Assembly (NCBI GenBank): GCA_022794215.1
Contig: JAAWEH010000023.1
Location: 1 to 59,957, forward strand
Length of the DNA: 59,957 nucleotides
Reading direction: 5' to 3'
Source: Oscillospiraceae bacterium
GTDB taxonomy: Bacteria > Bacillota > Clostridia > Oscillospirales > Oscillospiraceae
Shown here: piece after piece, positions 22,043 to 24,416 of the stretch
How the letters are laid out: each line of letters starts with the position of its first letter
How positions within the stretch are numbered: the stretch's first letter is position 1
Position numbers and translations under genes: made by a program
The notes under the pieces: generated by a model
Database searches by the model: none
Seen by the model: the letters and a program-made list of their open reading frames with translations, nothing else
What the model was told of the DNA's origin: nothing

Positions 22043-22071
22043 TTGACACAAAGGAGGGCATCTGTTAAAAT
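22043..22071 (+). promoter_or_regulatory. Promoter of the uraA leader
   Basis: Perfect TTGACA (22043-22048), 17-bp spacer, TAAAAT (22066-22071). Predicted transcription start near 22078, giving a leader of about 185 bases before uraA that contains the leader ORF and terminator. Confidence 0.85.
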
Positions 22072-22101
22072 ACCGCCTAATGAAGAAAGGAGGGAGCCGC
22101 C

Positions 22102-22203
22102 ATGACCAAGCTGAAGCGCCGCCGCTATCGTTTTGGATGTGGTATGATTCCTTCCTTTTCTGTTTCTGTTGGGTCATTTGTTGAGAGACGATCACTTTTG
22201 TGA
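22102..22203 (+). CDS. Leader peptide of the uraA attenuator
   Basis: A 33-codon ORF behind a strong ribosome binding site (AAAGGAGGG, 22087-22095). It starts MTKLKRRRYRFGCGMI, a basic N-terminal part, and then runs through a U-rich tract (22146-22182, coding IPSFSVSVGSFV). Its TGA stop (22201-22203) falls at the loop/3' arm of the terminator at 22184-22217, so a ribosome translating to the end would cover the 5' arm. This is the geometry of pyrL in front of enteric pyrBI: when UTP is low RNA polymerase pauses in the U-rich tract, the ribosome catches up, and the terminator cannot form. The ORF, promoter and hairpin are seen; the UTP mechanism is inference. Confidence 0.75.
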   Translation: MTKLKRRRYRFGCGMIPSFSVSVGSFVERRSLL

Positions 22204-22217
22204 TCGTCTCTTTTTTT
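22184..22217 (+). terminator. Attenuator terminator upstream of uraA
   Basis: Perfect 12-bp stem (22184-22195 with 22200-22211), TTTT loop, then a run of T to 22217. It lies between promoter and uraA, so uraA transcription depends on read-through. Confidence 0.92.
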
Positions 22218-22263
22218 GCCCAATGGATCGTAGAGGGTTGAGAAGAAGAAAGGAGAACGAATC

Positions 22264-23598
22264 ATGAATCAAGAAGCTATCCGCGACGCACGTAAGCTGG
22301 GCGTGCCCAAAATGCTGCTGCTGGGTCTGCAGCATATGTTTGCCATGTTTGGGGCTACCATCCTGGTACCCATTCTGGTGAATCAGTACGGTCTGCCCCT
22401 GAACATCCAGACCACCCTGTTTTTCGCCGGTATCGGCACCCTGTTTTTCCATGTCTGTTCAAAACTGAAGGTTCCCGCTTTCCTGGGCTCCTCCTTTGCC
22501 TTCCTGGGCGGATTTTCCACCATGGCCAATATGGATCAGGGAATCTACGCCGGCATGGATCCCGCGGTGAAGCTCCAGTACGCCTGCGGCGGTATCGTGG
22601 TGGCCGGCCTTCTCTATCTGGTGCTGGCGCTGCTGGTTAAGGCGGTGGGCGTCCACAAGGTCATGCGGTTCCTGCCCCCGGTGGTCACCGGCCCCATCAT
22701 CATCTGCATCGGCTTGAACCTGGCCCCCTCCGCGGTGAACAACGCCTCCACCTGCTGGTGGCTGGCTCTGGTGGCCATGGCGATCATCATCGTGTGTAAC
22801 ATCTGGGGCAAGGGCATGGTGAAGATCATCCCCATCCTCTTGGGCGTGGTTGGAGCCTACATTGTGGCGATCCTCACCAAGCAGGTGGATTTCACCGGCG
22901 TGAAGGATGCCGCGTGGATCGGGTTCCAGCCTTTCGTCACAAACTTCAGCGGCAGCGTGGCTAAGTTTGACGTCTCCGCCATCCTGGTTATGGCCCCCAT
23001 CGCCATTGCCTCCATGATGGAGCATATCGGCGATATGTCCGCCATCTCCGCTACCGTGGGTGAAAAATTCCTGGAGGAGCCCGGCCTGCACCGGACCCTC
23101 ATCGGGGACGGCGTTGCCACCGCTCTGGCCGGCCTGTTCGGCGGCCCTGCGAACACCACTTACGGCGAAAATACCGGTGTGCTGGTTCTCTCCCGGGTCT
23201 ATGATCCCCGGGTCATCCGGCTGGCCGCCATCTATGCCCTGGTTCTTTCCTTCAGCCCCAAGTTTGCCGCCCTCATCGGCGCCCTGCCCTCCGCCATCAT
23301 CGGCGGCGTCAGCTTTATCCTCTACGGCATGATCTCCGCCATCGGTGTGCGGAATGTGGTGGAGAACCAGGTGGACTTCACCAAATCCCGGAACCTGATC
23401 ATCGCCGCCGTGATCCTGGTCTGCGGCCTGGGCTTTTCCGGCGGCCTTACCTTCCAAATGGCGGGGGCCAGCGTGACCCTCACGGGCCTTGCTATCGCCG
23501 CTATCGCGGGTATCCTCCTCAACGCCATCCTTCCCGGCAACGACTATGAGTTCGGCGTCAGCGATTCCGGCGACCAAAACCGCGGCATCCATCAGTAA
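22264..23598 (+). CDS. uraA: Uracil permease (NCS2 family)
   Basis: 444 residues with about 14 membrane helices. NCS2 nucleobase:cation symporter of the UraA branch. LGLQHMFAMFGATILVP in helix 1, the conserved Glu/His-type sites, and TTYGENTGVLVLSRVYDP (the GEN motif that contacts uracil) favour uracil over xanthine. ATG 22264 follows AGAAAGGAGAACGAATC. It is monocistronic: promoter 22043, attenuator 22184, terminator 23621. Control by pyrimidine level is expected for this gene, and the leader peptide/terminator in front gives a plausible means. Confidence 0.92.
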   Translation: MNQEAIRDARKLGVPKMLLLGLQHMFAMFGATILVPILVNQYGLPLNIQTTLFFAGIGTLFFHVCSKLKVPAFLGSSFAFLGGFSTMANMDQGIYAGMDPAVKLQYACGGIVVAGLLYLVLALLVKAVGVHKVMRFLPPVVTGPIIICIGLNLAPSAVNNASTCWWLALVAMAIIIVCNIWGKGMVKIIPILLGVVGAYIVAILTKQVDFTGVKDAAWIGFQPFVTNFSGSVAKFDVSAILVMAPIAIASMMEHIGDMSAISATVGEKFLEEPGLHRTLIGDGVATALAGLFGGPANTTYGENTGVLVLSRVYDPRVIRLAAIYALVLSFSPKFAALIGALPSAIIGGVSFILYGMISAIGVRNVVENQVDFTKSRNLIIAAVILVCGLGFSGGLTFQMAGASVTLTGLAIAAIAGILLNAILPGNDYEFGVSDSGDQNRGIHQ

Positions 23599-23747: not shown

Positions 23748-23774
23748 TTAGCACTTGACAGAATGGAGTGCTAA
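23748..23774 (+). promoter_or_regulatory. CIRCE operator 1 (HrcA site)
   Basis: TTAGCACTT-N9-GAGTGCTAA, one mismatch from the consensus 9-9-9 inverted repeat bound by the heat-shock repressor HrcA. It overlaps the -35 of the hsp20 promoter. Confidence 0.9.
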
Positions 23775-23784
23775 GGTTTACAAT
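23755..23784 (+). promoter_or_regulatory. Heat-shock promoter for hsp20
   Basis: Perfect TTGACA (23755-23760) inside the CIRCE element, 18-bp spacer, TACAAT (23779-23784). The leader to ATG 23988 is about 200 bases and carries a second CIRCE-like site. Confidence 0.75.
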
Positions 23785-23916: not shown

Positions 23917-23943
23917 TTAGCAATATAAAAATGTGAGTGCTAA
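23917..23943 (+). promoter_or_regulatory. CIRCE-like operator 2
   Basis: TTAGCAATA-N9-GAGTGCTAA. The right half is perfect, the left matches 6 of 9, and the 9-base spacing is exact. It lies 44 bases before the hsp20 start, where it could act at DNA or mRNA level. Confidence 0.75.
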
Positions 23944-23987
23944 CAATTTGCCCGAAAACCATTGATATGAAAAAGGAGAAATCAATT

Positions 23988-24416
23988 ATGTTTGGCATGC
24001 TTCCCTTTGACCGCAGTGATAACAATGTGTTCGATACCTTTGATAACTTTGCCCGGGACTTTTTCCGCAAGTCCAACGCCGACCTGCCCGCCTTCCGTAC
24101 CGATATTCGGGATGCCGGGGACAGCTACCTGCTTGAGGCAGAGCTTCCCGGTTTTAAGAAGGAAGACATCACCCTCCATCTAAAGGACGGCATCCTTACC
24201 ATCACCGCTGTCCACAGTGAGAGCAGTGAGACCGGGGATGATAAGGGCGCTTATATCCGCCGGGAACGGCGCTATGGTTCCTTCCAGCGCAGCTTTGATG
24301 TGACCGGCATTGACGAAGGGGGCATCACCGCCACCTATGAAAACGGAGTGCTGGCCCTGACGCTGCCCAAGATGAAGCCGGCCGAGCCGGAGATCCGTCA
24401 TATCCAGATCCAGTAA
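23988..24416 (+). CDS. Small heat-shock protein Hsp20
   Basis: 142 residues. An alpha-crystallin-domain holdase that keeps unfolding proteins soluble for ClpB/DnaK. The N-terminal FGMLPFDRSDNNVFDTFDNF resembles Clostridia Hsp18; the crystallin domain (about 35-135) includes YLLEAELPGFKKEDITLHL and the closing ENGVLALTLPK. ATG 23988 follows AAAAAGGAGAAATCAATT; an upstream in-frame start at 23937 falls in operator 2 and is rejected. Controlled by HrcA through two CIRCE sites; clpB follows after a terminator. Confidence 0.93.
   Translation: MFGMLPFDRSDNNVFDTFDNFARDFFRKSNADLPAFRTDIRDAGDSYLLEAELPGFKKEDITLHLKDGILTITAVHSESSETGDDKGAYIRRERRYGSFQRSFDVTGIDEGGITATYENGVLALTLPKMKPAEPEIRHIQIQ

Follow-up and report, generated by a model that had tools for sequence, protein, structure and literature searches.

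Attenuation of the pyrBI type is a textbook enteric mechanism. In Gram-positive bacteria, uracil permease genes are covered by PyrR attenuation (RF00515), in which uridine nucleotides are sensed via a terminator, and the ribosome and polymerase of Firmicutes are thought to run apart. For the pyrL leader of E. coli, tight coupling has been described as a requirement for preventing its terminator (PMC5021804); for B. subtilis, transcription and translation have been reported as mostly uncoupled, with a short distance from stop codon to terminator taken as a proxy (PMC7858274). Leader-peptide control can exist in Firmicutes, where regular leader peptides have been proposed for hisS-type genes (PMC2965389), and in the tlrB leader of B. 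subtilis pausing of the polymerase is described as buying time for the ribosome (PMC6851288). A different pyrimidine-sensing scheme has been described for pyrG (PMC4448216).

The DNA analysed here (the window, 59,957 nucleotides) is one contig of an incomplete Oscillospiraceae genome (G000, 68% complete), which was compared with 15 relatives of the same genus. Its uraA gene is preceded by a leader that resembles E. coli pyrL-pyrBI in having a promoter, a short 5′ UTR, a Shine-Dalgarno sequence, a leader ORF, a U-rich stretch and an intrinsic terminator in front of a pyrimidine gene. What marks the pyrBI type at the level of sequence is found: the leader has its own promoter, Shine-Dalgarno sequence and open ORF, a U-rich stretch, and an ORF reaching the terminator of a pyrimidine-related gene. 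It differs from the enteric case in belonging to another phylum and in the gene served, which is an importer here and encodes aspartate transcarbamylase in pyrBI; and it differs from PyrR-dependent attenuation in that the PyrR RNA was found neither in the window nor in the 16 genus genomes. The tlrB leader is a Gram-positive combination of leader ORF and terminator as well, but is described with a macrolide signal, a conserved arrest peptide and a NusG pause (PMC6851288), whereas the peptides of uraA leaders vary. The hisS-type leaders of Firmicutes likewise combine a short ORF with a terminator, but are described as carrying a run of sensing codons (PMC2965389), and uraA leaders have no conserved codon run. 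A search of the openly licensed literature turned up no pyrBI-like leader reported from Clostridia or upstream of uraA, which is weak evidence of absence. Taking the data below together, we consider it probable, with some reserve, that the leader is a pyrBI-like, ribosome-coupled, UTP-sensing transcription attenuator controlling uracil uptake.

Parts of the leader and the gene it precedes

A sequence-only reading of the locus had proposed such an attenuator. The promoter, the strong ribosome binding site, the 33-codon ORF and the perfect 12-bp terminator on which it was built were all recovered as claimed (Table 1), and transcription would start at about 22078-22080. The U-rich tract, which had been placed at 22146-22182, does precede the terminator, its densest portion lying at about 22148-22169. 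The stop codon had been placed in the terminator loop, which proved incorrect, as the TGA forms bases 2-4 of the 3′ arm.

Table 1. Coordinates of the features of the uraA locus in the window
Feature	Position	Strand	Remarks
Leader promoter TTGACA-17-TAAAAT	22043..22071	+	11/12 consensus positions; TG preceding the -10
Shine-Dalgarno AGGAGG of leader ORF	22088-22093	+	Within a longer purine run; 8 nt 5′ of ATG 22102
Leader ORF, 33 codons	22102..22203	+	Ends in TGA 22201-22203, just inside the terminator 3′ arm
U-rich tract 5′ of terminator	22148..22182	+	Partly complementary to the leader Shine-Dalgarno
Intrinsic terminator	22184..22217	+	Stem 22184-22211 with 12 contiguous pairs, loop TTTT 22196-22199, 3′ arm 22200-22211; T-run 22211-22217, then GCCC
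Outer helix enclosing terminator	22169..22223	+	TTGGGT with GCCCAA in the window; consensus fold of 7 genus leaders
uraA, NCS2-family transporter	22264..23598	+	TIGR00801 above cut-off
hsp18-like ORF	23937-24416		Hsp18 model 118.6 bits, below cut-off

The outer helix, formed by ATGGGC with GCCCAT in close relatives, can by the modelled fold form in read-through RNA only. From the leader through the start of uraA the RNA folds better than shuffled sequences (z -4.4), a value explicable by the terminator plus the outer helix. The sole promoter-like match between the terminator and uraA reaches 9 of 12 positions, and its end overlaps the uraA start. Known RNA families were searched as candidates for the leader and rejected, the best match being weak (E 0.63).

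Among NCS2 transporters, the uraA product is by sequence most like the uracil permeases: the uracil permease model PRK10720 was its best specific model, at 316.7 bits and below the cut-off of 477, and its best solved relatives are uracil permeases (210-213 bits). Downstream of uraA, a separate observation made by eye is a TTAGCACTT-N9-GAGTGCTAA repeat at 23748-23774, with a half site near 23934. The repeat is close to the CIRCE operator of HrcA and overlies a promoter, TTGACA-18-TACAAT at 23755-23784, before the hsp18-like gene.

Conservation of the layout among relatives

The upstream regions of 78 uraA genes were read, 18 and 60 from two homologue listings: from the first, of 30 loci, 12 were omitted for low identity or partial sequence; from the second, of 99 places, 60 were read, seven were already included and 32 (at most 67% identity) were left out. 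A script first located the terminator closest to the gene and, upstream of it, the best promoter; after that promoter it chose the start with the best Shine-Dalgarno sequence, and it was blind to the stop codon. Promoter, start and terminator were all returned in 56 of the 78 regions, and one of these (L073) was excluded by eye because a leader is absent, leaving 55 for the ORF statistics. The ORF was open as far as the stem in 53 of the 55 (32.1 expected from shuffles), and its stop fell at -6 to +25 of the stem in 49, compared with 5 and 9 for the two remaining frames. The same layout is therefore present at 49 of 78 loci and in 19 of 36 genera, with peptides and terminator sequences that differ; 29 loci have no leader with its stop in this interval. 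In the genus of the window 13 of 15 carry it, and one of the 19 positive genera belongs to another family. The leader of one relative of the same genus (G010) is identical to that in a contig of Pseudoflavonifractor sp. Marseille-P3106.

A further 80 named uraA loci returned all parts in 47. Only 2 of the 30 titled Lachnospiraceae, Roseburia, Butyrivibrio, Agathobacter or Eubacterium did so, both with poor promoters, compared with 45 of the 50 with other titles, which include Oscillibacter, Dysosmobacter, Evtepia, Flavonifractor, Pseudoflavonifractor and Lawsonibacter. Removal of 13 duplicates from the 103 leaders left 90 distinct ones, of which 85 have an ORF open to the stem and 77 a stop within -6 to +25 (10 and 10 in the other frames), while eight extend more than 25 nt beyond the start of the stem. 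Thirteen lie outside the stop interval (L009, L030, L038, L043, L044, L063, L073, L120, L123, L130, L150, L157 and L174); in L043, L044, L123 and L157 a wrong start or stem is suspected in the script's pick, and these are still counted as misses. Conversely, the 77 include L154 and L184, which have poor promoters and are probably chance matches. To lessen the effect of kinship, 44 representatives were picked at below 62% mutual identity: in 39 of them the ORF ran open as far as the stem (300 shuffles gave a mean of 25.3 and a maximum of 34), and the stop fell at -6 to +25 in 33 (4 and 7 in the other frames).

The spacing from promoter to start is shared with relatives: the distance from -10 to start has a median of 30 nt (range 11-39), the Shine-Dalgarno sequence matches at 6 of 6 or 5 of 6 positions in 73 of the 77 leaders with the stop in the interval, and the ORFs of these 77 have 17-44 codons (median 23); the terminator stems are of several different sequences. 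A ribosome placed with its A site on the stop codon, and with its leading edge assumed 11 nt past the first base of that codon, would cover at least 83% of the 5′ arm in the 77 leaders. For UTP sensing, the sequence-only reading had predicted that relatives would show a conserved overlap of ORF and terminator with variable peptides, and this is the pattern obtained. It had also named lack of conservation of the leader ORF as evidence against itself; open frame and stop position are kept in relatives.

E. coli K-12 pyrL was run through the same script for comparison. The annotated start was picked, with the same order of parts and T8GCCC after the stem; the pyrL stop lies 44 nt past the start of the stem, whereas most uraA leaders stop at the stem. 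Before the stem the shares of T and C are 0.48 and 0.24 in uraA leaders and 0.40 and 0.40 in pyrL. No local alignment with the pyrL peptide was obtained at E values up to 100, although peptides as short as these could hide kinship. Given this result and the different gene and phylum, we propose that the leader works like pyrBI and make no claim of descent; the uraA attenuator is probably convergent with the enteric one.

Among the loci examined the device seems confined to uraA. The script found no terminator upstream of 15 of 15 upp genes, of 5 of 5 genes upstream of pyrB (taken as pyrE), or at 3 of 5 carA loci (the other two were cut short), and no leader terminator was seen in 13 pyrB upstream regions read by eye. 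At several of the genus loci (L095-L098, L101 and L103) the pyrB promoter carries TGTGTATCCTATT or TGTGTATACTATT at -10 and is followed by a short leader in which no terminator was seen. Two further genus loci (L234 and L259) share a conserved segment that contains an inverted repeat, CGGCGTT...AACGCCG, and lies right before a Shine-Dalgarno sequence and ATG. A variant missed by the script was noticed upstream of uraA in G110 (L053), where the Shine-Dalgarno sequence of a very short ORF seemingly lies within the 5′ arm of a terminator with a long loop; ribosome binding alone could suffice against termination there.

The U-rich tract, the leader peptide and PyrR

In the 90 leaders the T share is 0.48 over the 30 nt 5′ of the stem and 0.24 over the opening 30 nt of the ORF; upstream of the window's 24 other terminators, which follow long ORFs called mechanically (a few of these ORFs being possibly spurious), it averages 0.21. 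The share of C is flat along the leader, about a quarter of the tract, with no rise toward the stem. The bias extends to synonymous sites. Phenylalanine is encoded by TTT and TTC at 127:43 in the last 12 leader codons versus 176:514 in uraA, and among NNY codons the NNT share is 0.67 in these 12, compared with 0.51 early in the leader and 0.16 in uraA; the early-codon value means that the difference from uraA is partly not specific to the tract. The U bias of the tract looks selected at the nucleotide level. Constraint on the peptide appears weak, with a pN/pS of 0.72 in nine genus leaders and codon positions that differ alike (0.29, 0.28 and 0.32), and no conserved run of sensing codons was found in leaders of the genus or of named relatives. 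We interpret these patterns as selection for U in the RNA, for an open frame and for the place at which the ribosome stops, and not for the peptide itself.

Additional signals in or near the tract were considered. A conserved pause hairpin before the tract did not emerge (z -0.03, 27 representatives), though the genus consensus permits one to be drawn. In NusG of the genus, all 14 of 14 loci have RNIRG at what we take to be the aligned position of the N81-T82 site, with Asn kept and Thr not. The B. subtilis NusG pause motif TTNTTT (PMC12288461), used for comparison, occurs in 45 of 77 leaders versus 41.5 expected; it is not above composition, and as a pause signal beyond plain U-richness it is not supported. 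The tail T7GCCC was dropped as a hallmark because it is frequent in genus genomes (4 to 12 copies each, 119 in all, the reversed pattern 43) and is present at terminators not belonging to uraA leaders (8 of 30 sites read).

A PyrR-binding loop in the leader had likewise been named by the sequence-only reading as contrary evidence. It was searched for with RF00515, which matched in 3 of 14 control genomes, and was found neither in the window nor in any of the 16 genus genomes, nor around 20 named uraA loci, of which 17 are leaderless. The PyrR protein scored above 200 bits in 5 of 78 genomes, all other matches being below 33 bits. In four of the five (G019, G080, G102 and G138) uraA lies directly behind pyrR and the leader is absent; in G262 both pyrR and a uraA leader are present. 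Most leaderless genomes are also without PyrR, so that PyrR and the leader are not strict alternatives.

Proposed mechanism and alternative explanations

We propose that the U-rich tract is a UTP-sensitive slow zone. Transcription would start shortly before a small decoy ORF with a strong Shine-Dalgarno sequence. With ample UTP the polymerase would cross the tract ahead of the leading ribosome, the terminator would fold and uraA would be off; with scarce UTP the polymerase would slow in the tract and the ribosome catch up, and at the stop codon it would cover the 5′ arm of the terminator so that transcription continues into uraA. We infer translation of the leader ORF, pausing in the tract, UTP as the signal and read-through at low UTP, the signal from the U tract and the nature of the downstream gene. 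The conserved layout and variable peptides support the attenuator reading, and retention of the layout across genera despite differing sequences suggests that import is raised when uridine nucleotides are low.

Several points speak against an attenuator. Short spacing from stop to terminator is common in the window, where 15 of the 24 other terminators start 4-22 nt downstream of the first base of a stop codon; this spacing and the uncoupling reported for B. subtilis argue against ribosome coupling. The U bias of early codons, the want of a conserved pause hairpin, the leaderless loci and the other pyr genes without a leader also count against it.

A doubtful but possible addition, compatible with UTP-sensing attenuation since both can act together, is that the transcribed pyrimidine tract serves as an anti-Shine-Dalgarno sequence and closes the leader ribosome site. 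As the site would be closed after passage of the polymerase, loading would need a slow polymerase: the ribosome must board while the polymerase is before or within the tract, and polymerase speed becomes a yes/no decision. In the predicted fold of the window leader the Shine-Dalgarno sequence pairs with the tract, with a pairing probability of 0.89 (L001). Over 77 leaders the pairing of tract and own Shine-Dalgarno sequence reached -16.8 kcal/mol, compared with -14.5 for the reversed, -13.1 for the shuffled and -14.6 for a foreign sequence, being stronger in 58, 67 and 59 of the 77, respectively; the pairing probability was 0.78, exceeding that with a shuffled tract (0.63) in 62 of 76 and that with a swapped tract (0.69) in 59 of 76. 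The outcome depended on how kinship was handled. An initial grouping into five clusters, which chained 73 of the 77 leaders into one group, gave no difference and was replaced by greedy picking: with 53 representatives every control was below 0.001, with 31 four of five controls gave p 0.002 to 0.045 and the fifth (reversed tract) p 0.12, and with 14 no control came down to 0.05. A precedent exists in B. subtilis tlrB, where a pause is described as allowing leader translation before the site is sequestered (PMC6851288). On the other side, E. coli pyrL has no excess (-13.7 own, -13.2 reversed, -13.9 shuffled), the fold of the window leader minus its terminator is only a moderate improvement on shuffled sequences (z -1.75), and pairing with a G-rich site would favour C, yet U is enriched. 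We regard the complementarity as a weaker lead, by which the tract may gate ribosome loading.

It is unlikely, though still to be taken seriously, that a coupling attenuator responds to a signal different from UTP, for example CTP, the general speed of the polymerase or the capacity for translation. The anatomy reveals the coupling parts better than the ligand, and about one base in four of the tract is C; against this, U is enriched while C is flat, and the downstream gene is in the most fitting terms a uracil transporter. Much less probable is an ordinary small gene with its own terminator and unregulated, leaky read-through into uraA, which the good ribosome site of the ORF and the many stops near stems in the window would allow. 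The peptides, however, share neither sequence nor length (17-44 codons), the stop overlaps or nearly overlaps the stem, whereas in the window such overlap is seen at 3 of 24 terminators and 15 follow the stop at 4-22 nt, the tract is missing before those terminators, and the one promoter-like match after the terminator is poor and ends over the uraA start. Hardly credible is sensing through Arg codons (the alternative of the sequence-only reading, which pointed to the Arg-rich start), through Phe codons, or through an arrest peptide with the macrolide-type R-X-R motif present in KLKRRRYR. In its favour, RYR of the window peptide is an arrest motif described for tlrB (PMC6851288), and the last 12 codons are rich in Phe (170 residues). 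Against it, the Arg-rich start is seen in close relatives and missing from the peptides of other genera, a ribosome stalled at codon 10 would end about 44 nt before the stem, Phe codons are mostly TTT as U bias would give and few in some leaders (e.g. L056), and the peptide is weakly constrained.

UTP-sensing attenuation and the pairing can be joined in one scheme, an independently evolved attenuator in which a single tract both slows the polymerase at low UTP and closes the leader ribosome site; we rate this as speculative and rather improbable. Polymerase speed would then set whether a single pioneer ribosome boards in time to mask the terminator. If true, it would mean ribosome-coupled attenuation even where the polymerase possibly outruns ribosomes, and a replacement of PyrR for uracil uptake.

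For the genus itself, 5 of 16 genomes had carA above the cut-off of its model and 11 of 16 had pyrB (several genomes being incomplete), and a 96% complete genome (G002) had neither above cut-off; uracil import could therefore be a main pyrimidine source for some members. This opens a possible angle on gut ecology, as some members of the genus may depend on importing uracil. If the attenuator works in Oscillospiraceae as proposed, it would be a convergent solution standing in for PyrR, and would offer a direct test of ribosome-polymerase coupling in Firmicutes.
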